A stretch of DNA of 21,073 bases from a virus, in the IMG/VR virus record IMGVR_UViG_3300047471_000692, positions 1 through 21,073 of that record; one strand, written 5' to 3'. Under the pieces are notes generated by a model, which worked only from the letters and a program-made list of their open reading frames with translations, was not told where the DNA came from and made no database searches. How positions within the stretch are numbered: position 1 is the first letter of the stretch; each line of letters begins with the position of its first letter. This document shows, piece after piece, positions 2,482 to 21,073 of the stretch. The position numbers were made by a program, and so were the translations under genes.

Positions 2482-3986
2482 CACGCAGCCTGCCAGGATC
2501 CGGCCGGCGGCTGACGCATGCGCTTGACTGGTTCGGTTTGCGCGAATCGCAACATCATCAGCGCGTAGCGCGTGGCCGACAAAAGATCGTCGTGCTCCTT
2601 CACCACCTTGCCGTCCTTGCGGTGATAGAGGCGGAATTCTTCGTACCAATCGTTGAGGTGCGAGAACACTTTCAGGCGGCCGGTCTGCATGCGATCGAGC
2701 ATCAGCATCAGTCCGGCTTCGACGCCGGAGGCGCCATCGATGAATGTTGCGCGCTCGGGCAGCATGGCCAAATGTTGGCCGCGGTACTGCGAGGCGAGCT
2801 CGTCGCCACTGCCTTTGTCGGCGGCGAGGCCGTCGTGCGGCCAGGCGATCGGCACCCACTCCGAGCCCCAGGCGCGGATCGCCGCGGCGTGCAGGATCGG
2901 CGTCGACTGTCGCTGGCGGAATGCGCGCGTGACGTAGACGATGTCTTCCTCGCGATCGTGCGTGAGCTCGACGCAAGCGAACGGATGGTCGTAGCCGAAA
3001 TCGAGCCCGCGGATGCGGGCAAATTCGCGCGGGAAGATGCGCGCCGGACAAACGATCTGTTCTTCGGTGATGGGGAAGATGCGGCCGGAGCCGAGGGTGG
3101 GAATTCCTTTGGCGCGCGCTTCGCGCTCGTGCGCGGGATAGCCGGCGATGATTTTTTCGCGGTCTGCGGCCGAGTAGTGCGGCGCGTCGTCGATCGTCAT
3201 GTTGATGTTGATGCGATCGGGCGAGGGTTCGAGCAAAAATCTGCGACACACTTCCGACATGCCGAGCAGCGGCGTGAAGGTCGAATAGACCATGCCGGCG
3301 GTCGACGAAATTCGCGTCAGCGCTTCAGAGTAGATTTCCATCGGCGGCTCTTCGTCGAGCCAGACAAAGTCGACGGTGTCGGCCTGCCACTTGGAGCGGC
3401 CCTGATCGTAGCTCTTGAAGTTTAACGTGCTGCGGCCCTGCTGCACGTCACCGCCACCGCCGTGCAGCACGACGATGCCATCGAGCGCATCCGAAACGCC
3501 GTTGCGGCGCGACCAATCGAGCAGGCATTCCTGCGGCAGCAATCCCGTGCCAAACGCCGACTGATCACGCGGGTTACCGACGATCAGTCGCTGCACCCCG
3601 TCGCGCGTGAGCTCGGCGGATTCTGAGCCGGCGACGGCGCGCAGCGGCCGATCGAAGACGCGGCCTTTCCACCAGGGCGGGTAGCGTCCGGTGAGGTGCA
3701 TGGCCGCCTCGGCGGATCCGGCCAGCGTCTTGCCGATCTGGTTGCCGGCGAGCAAGGCGCGTTCGCGGTAGATGCCGCCGGCATCGTGGAATTCGCGTTG
3801 TTTGGGATAGGGCAGATACTGCGACAGGCGCGAGAGTGAATTGCGCCGCTCGCGTTCACGCCCGAGGCGTTTAGTGAGGAGCTCCTGCGCGGCCAGGCCG
3901 CGGCGCAGCTCGGCGAGTTGTTCGGGCGTGAATCGGTATGTCGGCGTTTTTTTTGCAGCGGATTTTTTCGTCGACTTTTTCGTCAT
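2481..3986 (-). CDS. terL: Terminase large subunit (DNA packaging ATPase/nuclease)
   Basis: This 501-residue packaging motor cuts concatemeric phage DNA and pumps it into the procapsid. The ATPase half has the Walker A-like GNQIGKT (81-87) and the Walker B FVWLDEEP (207-214, catalytic Glu after the Asp). A probable coupling STFTP motif sits near 235-239. The RNase H-like nuclease half has D329 in GLDFGYDHP, a PHDG motif near 385, and a late HDD motif (VKEHDDLLSATRY). This pattern matches P22 gp2-type terminases. The N-terminal 13 residues are very Lys-rich. ATG 3986 is preferred over GTG 3995 because it overlaps the stop of the preceding small gene as TGATG. Length is typical for the family. 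Confidence 0.95.
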   Translation of the reverse strand: MTKKSTKKSAAKKTPTYRFTPEQLAELRRGLAAQELLTKRLGRERERRNSLSRLSQYLPYPKQREFHDAGGIYRERALLAGNQIGKTLAGSAEAAMHLTGRYPPWWKGRVFDRPLRAVAGSESAELTRDGVQRLIVGNPRDQSAFGTGLLPQECLLDWSRRNGVSDALDGIVVLHGGGGDVQQGRSTLNFKSYDQGRSKWQADTVDFVWLDEEPPMEIYSEALTRISSTAGMVYSTFTPLLGMSEVCRRFLLEPSPDRININMTIDDAPHYSAADREKIIAGYPAHEREARAKGIPTLGSGRIFPITEEQIVCPARIFPREFARIRGLDFGYDHPFACVELTHDREEDIVYVTRAFRQRQSTPILHAAAIRAWGSEWVPIAWPHDGLAADKGSGDELASQYRGQHLAMLPERATFIDGASGVEAGLMLMLDRMQTGRLKVFSHLNDWYEEFRLYHRKDGKVVKEHDDLLSATRYALMMLRFAQTEPVKRMRQPPAGSWQAA

Positions 3987-11926: not shown

Positions 11927-12498
11927 GACCCCTCCCAGGAGATTCTATCGATGGTCGTCGGGCCTTTGTGCGCTCGATCCCACACGTACCAGGCGAAGGC
12001 CATCGCGCTAGTGGCCTTTGGTCCCGTCCAGCCGTCGCGGTGCATCATCGGCAGTCGATTGCGAAATACGTGGATGCGTGCGAGCCCACTATCTTCGAGG
12101 ATGTCGGTGCGCTTGACGCTTTCGTAGAACGGCAAACGCAGCAGCATGATCACGCGCGGGCAGATGTCGATCGCGTGGCGCACGAAGGCCTCGGCCAACT
12201 TAAAGGGCGGGTTCGTGACGATCGCCTCGATTTTGTCTTGCGAACCCTTCGTTAAAAAATCGTGGCCGTAGAAGGTGTTTCTGTGCTTAGAGCCGTAGTC
12301 GATCAAGTCAGTAGCGAGCACCTCATTGCCTCTGGCGCGCAGCACCTTGACGATGTTGCCACGGCCGCAGGCTGGCTCCCATATTCTGAGCCAGGTTGGC
12401 AGTCGCTCGGCGCGCAGCATGGCCTCGACGGCCACGGCCGGTGTCTCGTAAAGATCGTCGCCGCGCTCGGCGTGCTTGTGTCGGAGCTCAAGCATCAT
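11923..12498 (-). CDS. Orphan DNA adenine-type methyltransferase
   Basis: This gene encodes about 191 residues. The start is ATG 12498 or the adjacent ATG 12495, both overlapping the upstream stop. A DLYETP motif (15-20) precedes the SAM-binding motif I EPACGRGNI (41-49), an acidic strand end follows (ATDLID), and the catalytic motif IV is NPPF (96-99), as in N6-adenine DNA methyltransferases. It lacks a large target-recognition domain, and no restriction gene is nearby, so it likely protects or marks phage DNA. A role on RNA or protein cannot be excluded, because NPPF-type motifs are shared. Confidence 0.85.
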   Translation of the reverse strand: MMLELRHKHAERGDDLYETPAVAVEAMLRAERLPTWLRIWEPACGRGNIVKVLRARGNEVLATDLIDYGSKHRNTFYGHDFLTKGSQDKIEAIVTNPPFKLAEAFVRHAIDICPRVIMLLRLPFYESVKRTDILEDSGLARIHVFRNRLPMMHRDGWTGPKATSAMAFAWYVWDRAHKGPTTIDRISWEGS

Positions 12499-13115
12499 TT
12501 GAAATTGTCCGTTAGCTTGTCCCAGGATCCCGGCTGCGCATCGGGCAGCGCGTCCCACTGCTCTTGCGTGATGCCGTGCCTCTCCATCACTGCCTTGGGC
12601 GTGGCCGGCACATGGTCGCCAGCGAAATGAAAGCCGGCGGCGCGGAGCTCGCCCTTGATCCTGGCCACCACCGCTGCGCGCTGCTCGGGCGTTGTCGTCT
12701 TGACCTCGGCCTCGTAGAGCTCGCGCTGGCGCAGCTGCTCGGCCGCGCGCCGATCCCAATCCGCAGCGTAGCTCGATTGCCGCGCGCGCGAGTCGCAGAA
12801 TTCCACGAGCTCGGCGATCGAGGGCGGAAACTTGCATTCGCGCTGGATGCCGGTGATCGGCGATGTCGCCCAGGTGATCGTCGCATCGTCATACTTTTCC
12901 AGCACCGTCAATAGCTGTTCAAGGAAGCCTTCTGGATCCGCGAAGTCATCCTTTCGGTAGGCGCTGAAGATGCGCCTTGCCGCCTTCGTTACCCACGCCG
13001 ACCGGTCGAGGTCCGCTCGTGCCTGGGACGTATTCGCGGACACCGTTTTGGGTGAAGAAGTCGTCAAGCTTGTCGGTGACGTCCAATAGCGATCCAGATC
13101 GTCTTCCATGTCCAT
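12495..13115 (-). CDS. Replication-associated protein (helicase-loader position)
   Basis: This gene encodes about 206 residues from ATG 13115; ATG 13109 has better spacing to the AGGGG site. The first ~50 residues are Ser/Thr-rich and overlap the upstream gene by 170 bases in another frame. The ordered part starts at about AWVTKAARRIFSAYRKDDFADPE and includes FLEQLLTVLEKY and CKFPPSIAELVEFCD, patterns I recall from phage replication-associated proteins. The C-terminus is helical and charged, ending with GITQEQWDALPDAQPG. Position after the replication protein suggests a loader or cofactor, which is inference. A fusion through a frameshift is the alternative. Confidence 0.65.
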   Translation of the reverse strand: MDMEDDLDRYWTSPTSLTTSSPKTVSANTSQARADLDRSAWVTKAARRIFSAYRKDDFADPEGFLEQLLTVLEKYDDATITWATSPITGIQRECKFPPSIAELVEFCDSRARQSSYAADWDRRAAEQLRQRELYEAEVKTTTPEQRAAVVARIKGELRAAGFHFAGDHVPATPKAVMERHGITQEQWDALPDAQPGSWDKLTDNFK

Positions 13116-13506
13116 TGCCCCTGTTGCGGTACGGTGATGAGAGCCAATTGCGCCAGGCAGCGTCCCAGTTGGCGTAGCGCTTGGCATGTGCTGTGCAGTA
13201 GTCGGTGAAGCGAACGAACTCACCCCGGTCCTTCTCTGCGATGATGGGATGCCAATCGGCCGGCATCGTCGTCAGTGCGCGCTTGGTCCGGGCCGGCTTA
13301 GGTGCATCACACAGCTGTAACGTTTCATGTAACGTTACAGGTTTGTTGTTTTTGCTAATCTTTGGGCGCGTAACGTTACGGTAACGTTTCAGTCGCTGAC
13401 GATCGCGCTCACGTCGCGCGGCGAGAGCCTCGAAGGTGTCCACAATTTTTTCGATGATGTCCGCGCGCACGCCCTTCGCCTGGAGCTCGGCAAGCACGTC
13501 GCGCAT
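12946..13506 (-). CDS. Phage replication protein carrying a candidate origin
   Basis: This gene encodes 186 residues from ATG 13506, with GGAGG 9 bases upstream. The N-terminus is helical (VLAELQAKGVRADIIEKIVDTFEAL) and very basic (ARRERDRQRLKRYR). The C-terminal half has MPADWHP...FVRFTDYCTAHAKRYANWDAAWRNWL, a motif found at the C-terminus of many phage replication initiator or DnaT-like proteins. The DNA for the linker (13317-13391) holds four GTAACGTT repeats around an AT-rich stretch, like the lambda ori inside O. The last residues after GTSGPRP are probably not under selection, since the next gene is read there in another frame. Confidence 0.75.
   Translation of the reverse strand: MRDVLAELQAKGVRADIIEKIVDTFEALAARRERDRQRLKRYRNVTRPKISKNNKPVTLHETLQLCDAPKPARTKRALTTMPADWHPIIAEKDRGEFVRFTDYCTAHAKRYANWDAAWRNWLSSPYRNRGNGHGRRSGSLLDVTDKLDDFFTQNGVREYVPGTSGPRPVGVGNEGGKAHLQRLPKG
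13317..13391. other. Candidate replication origin (iteron cluster)
   Basis: Four copies of GTAACGTT start at 13317, 13329, 13370 and 13381. The outer copies extend to GTAACGTTTCA. The inner two are perfect palindromes (TGTAACGTTACA and CGTAACGTTACG). A T-rich, low-GC stretch (about 13340-13364) separates the pairs. Iterons flanking an easily melted stretch inside a replication protein gene is the arrangement of lambdoid origins. This is inferred from the sequence layout. Confidence 0.65.
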
Positions 13507-14229: not shown

Positions 14230-14259
14230 CTTATACAGGTGTCCTGCTAAACCTGGCAA
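14230..14259 (-). promoter_or_regulatory. Leftward early promoter with operator
   Basis: On the minus strand TTGCCA (14254-14259), an 18-base spacer and TATAAG (14230-14235) form a promoter for the HTH regulator and replication genes. The imperfect operator CAGGTGTCCTG (14236-14246) abuts the -10. Confidence 0.65.
14236..14246. promoter_or_regulatory. Variant copy of the palindromic operator
   Basis: CAGGTGTCCTG is a symmetric 11-base site that differs from the perfect copies (CAGGTGACCTG) only at one central base. It sits between the -35 and -10 of the leftward promoter, so occupancy would repress that promoter. Confidence 0.6.
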
Positions 14260-14265
14260 GGTCGG

Positions 14266-14294
14266 TTGCCATATGTCAGGTGACCTGATATCTG
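14266..14294 (+). promoter_or_regulatory. Rightward early promoter with perfect operator
   Basis: TTGCCA (14266-14271) and TATCTG (14289-14294) are separated by 17 bases. The spacer contains the perfect palindrome TCAGGTGACCTGA (14276-14288), identical to the core at 7162-7174. The predicted transcription start, about 7 bases after the -10, falls on the ATG at 14301, so the first message may be leaderless. Confidence 0.7.
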
Positions 14295-18665: not shown

Positions 18666-21073
18666 CTAGAATACGAGGAAGAAACCGTCCTGACCGGCGC
18701 CGACCACAGGCGCGCCGATCGTCGGGCTCGCGACCCAGTTGCCTTGCCCCTGGAAGGTCGCGCGCACCGTCATGCCCTGGCGAAGGCTGGCAGACAGACT
18801 GCCGGCGCCGACGAATTGCGCGCCAAATGTCTGACGCTGCGCCAGCTGTGCTTGAAGGTTACCTGCGCCGGCAAATTGCGCATTGATTGCCTCGCGCATC
18901 CGCAGCGTCGGAACGAAACTGCCAGCGCCGGCAAAGCTCGCATTGATCTGCAGCGGCTGGCCGCTAATTATTAATTGCGCGACCCAATTGCCTACGCCGA
19001 CGAATTGCGCGCCGAAGGCCTGGTTCAGTTGGATCTGCGGAACGAAATTGCCGGCACCGTTGAATGTCGCGCCGAATGCCTGGCCTAATTGAATCTGCGC
19101 GAGGAAATTTCCAGCGCCGGCAAACGTCGCAGCGATCGATTTGAATTTATCGACATTGGCCGACCAGGCGCCCACACCACTGAAGTTGCCGGTGAAGAAC
19201 AACGCCGAGTTGATCCTGGCAGTCCAGGCGCCTGCACCATCGAACCGGGCGGCGATCGCCATGCCCAGATTGATGGAGCTCGACAGCGCACCGCTGCCGG
19301 CGAAAGTCGCAGCGATCGATTTAAATTTACTGACGTCGGCCGTCAGCGCGCCTACGCCGTTGAAGGTGGCCGACATGGCCATCTGCTGCAGCAGCGCCGC
19401 GCTCAGAGCTCCGGCGCCGTCGAAGCGCGCATTGATCGCTTCGTTCAGCCGCATCGTGGCGGTGAGCCCGCCAGCGCCGTCAAAGTTCGCATTGATGGCC
19501 CAGGCGTTGAAGATGCCCGGTATGGTGAGAGTAGGATCGGCCCACAAACCGACGCCGTTGAAATTGGCGCCGATCGCCATGCCCAGATTGACGAAAGCAG
19601 ATAGGCCGCCAGCGCCCTGGAATGTTGCCGCAATCGATTTAAATTTGCTGACGTCGGCAGACCAGGCGCCTGCGCCCTGCCACGCAGCATTGACGGCCAT
19701 GCCTTGGCTGAGCGCCGCCAACAAAGCGCCAGCGCCCTGGAAGCTCGCCGTTAAATTTTTAAATTTGCTGATGTCGGCCGTCAGGGATCCGGCGCCCTGG
19801 AAAGAGGCGAACGTCGACATCTGCTGCAGGAGCACTGCAGTCCAGCCGCCCGTGCCCACCCAGGCCGCCGTGATGTTTTTCGATTTGCTGACGTCGGCTG
19901 TCAGAGCTCCGGCGCCGGCAAACGACGCATTGATAGCCTCGGCCAGATTGACGCTCGCCTGCAGAACTCCGGCTCCGGCAAATGTTGCCGCTAGATTTTT
20001 TATGTTCGAAACATTTGCGGAGAGACTGCCGACGCCGGCCCAGGCCGCCGTGATCTGCCACGCCGTGCCCGTTGAGAATTTAGCAAACGAATACTGACCG
20101 ACCGCATATTCGCCGACCGCGGGCCACCCAGCCCTGCGAACCTTGTCGAGGTTGATAAAAAGTTTGGGAGCAGAAATAGCCCCGGCACCGGCAAACGTCG
20201 CAGCAATCGCGTGAGCAGTGGACCCTGCATAGGTGATAACGATAAGGCCGGCACCACCGGATCCACCCGTGCCATTGCCGGCACCACCACCGCCACCGCC
20301 ATGACAATTCGTGCCAGTTGCACTTCCGCCCGCGCCAGCGCCCGAGCCACCGCCACCGCCACCACCGCCGGTCGACTTGGTGACAACGCTTGTCGTAGTC
20401 CCGTCAGCAAGATGCGTCGACGTCCAGACACCCGTACCGACCGCGGGTGTTACGCCGGCACCAGAACCGCCATCGCCGCCAGGACCGCCGCCGTTGGCGT
20501 TGGTGCCGCCCGCGCCTGCGCTGGTCGTGCCTGTGCCGCCAGTGCCGCCGCCTGTCGATGTGCCAGCTCCCGAGCCACCGCCGCCGCCGAAGTCCTGGCC
20601 CGCCGTCGTGTTGTCGCCGGGGCCGCCCGTTCCGCCTGTGCCACCGGGACCGCCCGCACCGCCACCGCCTCCTCCGGTCAGCGCAGTCGCGCCTCCGAGC
20701 CCACCGCCGCCGCCGTTATTGCCAGTGCCGCCAGTGCCGGTTGAACCGCCAGCGCCGCCGGTCGCAGATGTCGCGGCAATGCCGCCCTGCGCCGACAGCG
20801 TCGCGCCTGCGAATGTTGTGCCGTTCCACCAAGTATTGTTTCCGTTGGTGCCGGCGCCAACGCTCGCAGCGATCGAAACATTGATCGTGCCGGACAAACC
20901 GGCCACGTTGGTTGCCTTGCGATATTGGCCGCCGCCAGATCCACCCGCACCCGCGCCAGCCGCCGTTCGCCCACCGGCACCGCCGCCAATCACCTCAATC
21001 GTATTTGTGGCTGACCAATCTGCGGGAATCGTGAAAGTGGTTGTGCCAGTTGTGAGAAAAATAACCTTAGTGG
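18666..21073 (-). CDS. Repetitive tail (fibre-like) protein, 5' end cut by the window edge
   Basis: The open frame enters from the right edge and ends at TAG 18666 (802 codons seen). The first visible part (VIFLTTGTTTFTIPADW, then NTIEVIGGGAGG) is the typical start of a glycine-rich phage tail domain. A Gly-rich stretch (about 20220-20995) follows, then 23 repeats of about 20 residues of the form hxAxFxGxGxLxAxhxxxxx, and a short non-repetitive end (GAGQDGFFLVF). It is probably a receptor-binding or tail-fibre component. GTG 20993 is not the true start, because the frame is open and family-like upstream of it. Confidence 0.85.
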   Translation of the reverse strand, partial: TKVIFLTTGTTTFTIPADWSATNTIEVIGGGAGGRTAAGAGAGGSGGGQYRKATNVAGLSGTINVSIAASVGAGTNGNNTWWNGTTFAGATLSAQGGIAATSATGGAGGSTGTGGTGNNGGGGGLGGATALTGGGGGGAGGPGGTGGTGGPGDNTTAGQDFGGGGGSGAGTSTGGGTGGTGTTSAGAGGTNANGGGPGGDGGSGAGVTPAVGTGVWTSTHLADGTTTSVVTKSTGGGGGGGGSGAGAGGSATGTNCHGGGGGGAGNGTGGSGGAGLIVITYAGSTAHAIAATFAGAGAISAPKLFINLDKVRRAGWPAVGEYAVGQYSFAKFSTGTAWQITAAWAGVGSLSANVSNIKNLAATFAGAGVLQASVNLAEAINASFAGAGALTADVSKSKNITAAWVGTGGWTAVLLQQMSTFASFQGAGSLTADISKFKNLTASFQGAGALLAALSQGMAVNAAWQGAGAWSADVSKFKSIAATFQGAGGLSAFVNLGMAIGANFNGVGLWADPTLTIPGIFNAWAINANFDGAGGLTATMRLNEAINARFDGAGALSAALLQQMAMSATFNGVGALTADVSKFKSIAATFAGSGALSSSINLGMAIAARFDGAGAWTARINSALFFTGNFSGVGAWSANVDKFKSIAATFAGAGNFLAQIQLGQAFGATFNGAGNFVPQIQLNQAFGAQFVGVGNWVAQLIISGQPLQINASFAGAGSFVPTLRMREAINAQFAGAGNLQAQLAQRQTFGAQFVGAGSLSASLRQGMTVRATFQGQGNWVASPTIGAPVVGAGQDGFFLVF
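18735..20210. repeat. Coding tandem repeat, about 60 bases per unit, 23 units
   Basis: The unit encodes a pattern such as IAATFAGAGALTADVSKFKN. The F/W-x-G-x-G core is nearly invariant, while the last ten residues vary and alternate in part between a SKFK(S/N) type and an NLG(M)A or LQQM type. Two units are longer because of insertions (near 18960 and 19510). The DNA copies are diverged, so the array is old or under selection for diversity. Confidence 0.85.

Follow-up and report, generated by a model that had tools for sequence, protein, structure and literature searches.

The repeat cluster and its surroundings

The sequence examined here is the IMG/VR virus record IMGVR_UViG_3300047471_000692, a complete record of 21,073 bases in linear form, which is called the window below. 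At the locus under study, a gene on the minus strand for a putative replication initiator carries within its coding sequence a cluster of four short repeats, and a candidate helicase loader gene comes next to it. An earlier reading, made from the letters of the window alone (the sequence-only reading), had proposed this cluster as a replication origin of the lambdoid layout. Our analysis indicates that the four repeats are very probably the iterons of a phage replication origin lying inside the gene of its own initiator, which would belong to a separate initiator family.

Counted over the whole window, exact copies of GTAACGTT start on the plus strand at 13317, 13329, 13370 and 13381, with start-to-start distances of 12, 41 and 11, so both the number and the spacing of the same-orientation repeats given by the sequence-only reading are confirmed. 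The only further exact matches arise where the two palindromic copies are read on the other strand, and the cluster is thus the sole place of the repeat, as had been noted. The two inner copies, which had been read as 12-base palindromes, are both perfect ones, and the stretch flanked by the repeats is indeed T-rich, which gives a layout of two sites, a spacer and two sites (Table 1). Between the pairs (13339-13370) the A+T content is 56% in a genome of about 39% A+T, a level found in about 5% of 32-base windows, and the A+T maximum of the gene falls in this spacer.

Table 1. Coordinates of the repeat cluster, the gene that carries it and the next gene
Feature	Position	Strand	Remarks
Putative replication initiator, 186 amino acids	12946..13506	-	relatives match PHROG replication-initiation and primosomal families
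Repeat copy, putative initiator-binding iteron	13316..13327	+	TGTAACGTTTCA, near-palindrome
Repeat copy, putative iteron	13328..13339	+	TGTAACGTTACA, perfect 12-bp palindrome
Spacer, putative unwinding element	13340..13368		T-rich (coding strand A-rich), between the two pairs
Repeat copy, putative iteron	13369..13380	+	CGTAACGTTACG, perfect 12-bp palindrome
Repeat copy, putative iteron	13380..13391	+	GGTAACGTTTCA, near-palindrome; one base in common with the preceding copy
Candidate helicase loader	12495..13115	-	position of lambda P and SPP1 gene 39; start near 13115

Constraint on the repeats at the DNA level

The cluster is far from what chance would give. With one mismatch allowed, GTAACGTT has 16 matches versus 6.3 +/- 2.6 in shuffles, and 0 of 100 shuffles reach 16. 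If the low-complexity glycine-rich gene near 20.3 kb is set aside, no other 8-mer has four copies inside 120 bases, and in 100 Markov-simulated genomes no 8-mer has more than three copies within that distance. The repeat is constrained as DNA and not as protein, because four copies arise in just 1 of 20,000 trials in which the codons are resampled synonymously and the protein is kept fixed. Moreover, the copies are spread over the three codon phases (with offsets of 1, 0, 2 and 2 modulo 3) and encode different peptides, namely LKRY, RNVT, PVTLH and HETLQ; the rarity among the resamplings and the spread over the phases therefore mean that the protein does not explain the copies. Taken over the whole gene, repeated 7-mers are above all 2,000 synonymous resamplings as well as all 2,000 codon shuffles. 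The excess of 8-bp palindromes in the gene alone is not significant (P 0.12), and therefore the palindromy rests on the individual sites.

The putative initiator

The gene most likely starts with the ATG at 13506, with GGAGG (13520-13516) ahead of it. Its product has predicted N-terminal helices and a basic stretch (RRERDRQRLKRYR), then the linker that bears the repeats, and finally a conserved C-terminal domain (PADWHP...WDAAWRNW). A tblastn search of the window initiator against annotated phages gave no match, and the annotated phages were reached via a relative. Among 13 aligned family members, 7 match phrog_3992, which is a primosomal family of PHROG (best 1.6e-19), and 7 match phrog_1408, a replication-initiation family (best 3.3e-14). 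The C-terminal domain is also found in genes of mycobacteriophages and of Pseudomonas phage LESphi2 that are annotated as replication initiation proteins. By homology of its relatives only, the gene that bears the repeats is thus predicted to encode a replication initiator.

An AlphaFold2 model of the protein, based on 13 sequences, has a mean predicted local distance difference test score (pLDDT) of 68. It contains a short helix (2-10) and a single long helix (15-46) running into the basic stretch, with confidence dropping near the end of that long helix (61 for residues 41-50); the linker coded by the repeats is of low confidence and the C-terminal domain (about 81-120) is confident.

The same place with other words in relatives

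The closest relative found is L003, whose protein is 62% identical over the full length. The sequence-only reading had taken the absence of the repeats from close relatives as evidence against an origin, and here the outcome is unexpected. The exact word is indeed absent from L003, which is without any GTAACGTTAC, while a different set of palindromes stands at the corresponding part of the gene: those of GTCACGTGAC type, at 3153, 3195, 3206 and 3219, enclose an AT-rich spacer in a layout of one site, spacer and three sites. Between the window and L003 both half-sites differ in step (AAC/GTT versus CAC/GTG). In other relatives, the part of the gene that follows the basic stretch and precedes the C-terminal domain holds still other units, namely GTGACGTAAC in L192 and L183, CGTGAC in L013, TCGTACGA in L186, and GTCACGGGACA in L014 and L190.

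For a wider comparison, in-gene repeats were tested in 31 genes with the C-terminal domain, which are not all independent since L192/L183 and window/L003 are close pairs, and in 233 control open reading frames (ORFs) taken from the same loci, antisense frames included. Repeats are above synonymous shuffles at P <= 0.05 in 27 of the 31 genes versus 17% of the control ORFs, and at P <= 0.02 in 22 of the 31 versus 14%. They lie mostly upstream of the C-terminal domain, including those of the initiation genes of mycobacteriophage Panchino and LESphi2. The highest A+T window falls in the repeat cluster or at most 100 bases after it in 20 of 28 genes, where the margin of 100 bases was picked after the data were seen. 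The repeat test took in genes picked by a gene filter, which left out the putative initiators of phi2LM21 and phi3LM21; the published description of these two genes mentions neither iterons nor direct repeats (PMC5537653). A scan for paired GTNACGTNAC gave 3 loci in genome contigs. In viral contigs, where chance matches dominate and the scan is uninformative, at least 3 loci were left after the gene filter, including one in a frame of 58 amino acids. Among open-licence literature, we found no papers on these repeats in this initiator superfamily.

Several further features were seen in these genes. In the annotated replication initiation gene of Mycobacterium phage Panchino (L216, 1949-2827), two clusters of CTCGCGAG palindromes, several in all, occur together with four GGAACAGG units in tandem, and the initiator genes of L142 and L200 have strong in-gene repeats whose units contain CACCCCCG or GTTCACCCCCGAA, unlike the ACGT-centred units. 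Tracts of C on the coding strand (G on the other strand) occur in or after the repeat cluster in L191, L190, L192, L183, L173 and L205; in several of those genes an AT-rich element, for example AATGAAAATAATTCTAAC, is close by. The tracts might be an additional element of the origin.

Interpretation as an origin inside the initiator gene

We consider it very probable that the repeats are in-gene iterons because they are constrained at the DNA level, because analogous repeats occupy the same place in relatives, and because those relatives carry initiation or primosomal annotations. From this we infer that the initiator binds the repeats and that they act as an origin. In a mechanism modelled on lambda (PMC7466680) and SPP1 (PMC6316719), initiator dimers would bind each palindrome through the N-terminal part of the protein, once bound, the complexes would bend the AT-rich spacer that separates the pairs and open it, and the next gene's product would recruit the host DnaB-type helicase, as lambda O/P and SPP1 gp38/gp39 do. 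With the origin placed within the initiator gene, the matched protein and site would stay linked through phage recombination.

Some observations weigh against this interpretation. The GC skew, which the sequence-only reading had proposed as a check, was not decisive, as it has no clear switch and tracks gene orientation. The A+T content of the spacer is modest and within synonymous expectation given the amino-acid sequence (P 0.56), and the relatives L188, L163, L175 and L016 are without significant repeats. The window initiator itself has no match in Pfam, NCBIfam or PHROGs, and a Foldseek search with its model gave no solved relative and just helical matches at chance level. Finally, the assignment of the next gene as a loader, treated below, depends on non-significant scores.

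As to how the sites might be read, it may be speculated that the subfamily reads ACGT-centred palindromes in the manner of a basic leucine zipper (bZIP), by a continuous helix with a basic end whose dimer is held by the preceding helix. A few residues of the basic stretch that differ between the window and L003 would then set the palindrome, and sites in the adjacent codons would co-evolve with them. The long basic-ended helix of the model and the ACGT-centred sites invite such speculation, which we nevertheless regard as unlikely on the whole. No Pfam bZIP match was seen, and to our knowledge bZIP-like DNA reading is not established for phage initiators.

Alternative explanations

The foremost alternative is that the repeats are operators, bound by the initiator or another phage regulator to repress transcription, either in autoregulation or in an early-late switch, with no role as an origin. 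ACGT-centred 12-bp palindromes do resemble the operators of dimeric repressors in general form, and some 700 bases upstream there is a Cro-like helix-turn-helix (HTH) gene that has a divergent control region of its own. However, more than 110 bases of the gene precede the repeats and no sigma-70-like promoter stands close to them, the operator candidates of the divergent region are a different, CAGGTGNCCTG-like palindrome, and distant phages also have in-gene repeats in this part of the gene, a recurrence that operators would not need. Taken together, these points make an operator role quite improbable. The divergent gap itself deserves a description. It is flanked by the small Cro-like HTH gene (14185-13988, minus strand, weak YdaS match) and by a RecE-like gene on the plus strand from 14301, and it holds the similar palindromes CAGGTGTCCTG (14236-14246) and TCAGGTGACCTGA (14276-14288), which are likely the operators of an early switch.

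It may also be supposed that the repeats are targets of the DNA methyltransferase encoded two genes downstream (phrog_799), in the same module, and that methylation regulates replication, which would be compatible with an origin. For Sinorhizobium prophages it has been suggested, though untested, that such enzymes take part in controlling replication (PMC5537653). Yet in L003 the repeat unit is changed while the initiator and the next gene are closely related to those of the window, and we hold methylation targets to be very unlikely.

That the repeats are a by-product of the protein, through selection for a repetitive linker rich in V and T or in charged residues, is hardly credible: several relatives do have repetitive linkers, e.g. 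DVTGDVTGD, but the window copies differ in peptide and codon phase as described above, and the repeats of most relatives are above synonymous shuffles. It is just as implausible that the left pair is a plus-strand intrinsic terminator (stem 13315-13340, then GTTTGTTGTT) stopping antisense transcription, since the 10-pair stem with a T-rich tract after it on the plus strand that the scan reports is 1 such site versus 1.2 expected in shuffles, no T tract accompanies the right pair, and L003 is without a T run after the pair on the antisense strand.

Comparison with known in-gene origins

Having weighed these, we return to an origin inside the initiator gene, a design for which there is precedent. 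In lambda, the origin lies in gene O with palindromic sites and an AT-rich stretch, and the helicase-loader gene is next (PMC7466680). The window is like lambda in having several palindromic sites and a modestly AT-rich stretch inside the putative initiator gene and a candidate loader gene next to it. However, the unit is a palindrome of 10-12 bp in place of the 19-bp imperfect inverted repeat of lambda, and two pairs stand around a spacer, whereas lambda has four sites beside the AT-rich stretch; the window does not have the lambda-type set, in which about four iterons, imperfect inverted repeats of 19 bp, stand beside a single AT-rich tract. Family searches, which may miss distant homology, found no match of the initiator to lambda O, and the resemblance of the next gene to P is weak. 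Of the lambdoid proposal in the sequence-only reading, the arrangement of iterons and an AT-rich stretch in the initiator gene is therefore well supported and the lambdoid membership is not, given that there is no O match and that unit and geometry differ. The locus would work like a lambdoid origin, but we do not class it as one.

In the Bacillus phage SPP1, whose initiator, loader and helicase are gp38, gp39 and gp40, the origin oriL lies in gene 38 and works with the loader gp39 (PMC6316719). The in-gene origin and the neighbour in loader position resemble what is proposed for the window, in which no counterpart of the second SPP1 origin, oriR, was seen; no significant sequence match of the window initiator to the SPP1 initiator was found. 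The phrog_1408 and phrog_3992 proteins (Panchino gp57 and LESphi2 P21_22) have the C-terminal domain in common with the window and in-gene repeats upstream of it, but at the N-terminus they have a different and longer domain, annotated as HTH in Panchino, whereas in the window protein and its subfamily the N-terminus is short and helical and carries the basic stretch. In Francisella phage vB_FhiM_KIRK, a putative origin whose iterons lie in an AT-rich region has been reported inside the gene fhv_0043, next to a gene of G39P type (PMC7924643); this is a different protein family by annotation, and the KIRK origin is also a prediction. In-gene iteron origins are thus already known from lambda (gene O) and SPP1 (gene 38), with KIRK as a predicted case; the present candidate has a geometry of its own, and its putative initiator falls in none of the recognised families.

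The next gene and another feature of the window

The next gene and the initiator gene have about 165-170 bases in common, read in different frames, and this overlap is kept in both the window (12946-13115) and L003 (3422-3585). A profile of its family points to the SPP1 gp39 helicase loader (PDB 1no1) with a non-significant E of 0.43. Its model aligns with lambda P in the DnaB-P complex (9oa1_Y) over 73 residues (VIA-align Z 5.2, root-mean-square deviation 2.9 A), where a Z of 5.2 can be chance for helical models and two unrelated chains score slightly above lambda P; a Foldseek search with the model gave nothing significant. In LESphi2, an annotated DnaC-like loader and a DnaB-like helicase come after the gene that is related to the window initiator. 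We therefore call the next gene a candidate helicase loader, for which the weak resemblances to lambda P and SPP1 gp39 are leads that fit its position and not proof.

Elsewhere in the window, a long glycine-rich gene on the minus strand (18666-21071), open at the end of the record, has repeated AATFAGAG-type motifs and probably encodes a tail or fibre protein. The other tandem repeats of the window (e.g. 19008-19130) lie inside a glycine-rich gene and are not iteron-like.

Significance

The in-gene origin design of lambda and SPP1 would, with the present interpretation, be extended to a broad and mostly unstudied superfamily of phage initiators, the relatives including alphaproteobacterial contigs and genomes, mycobacteriophages and Pseudomonas phages. 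The excess of repeats over synonymous expectation may serve as a simple handle for finding origins in unannotated phage genomes. Furthermore, pairs such as the window and L003, in which similar proteins go with different palindromes, would be natural material for mapping the residues that determine specificity.
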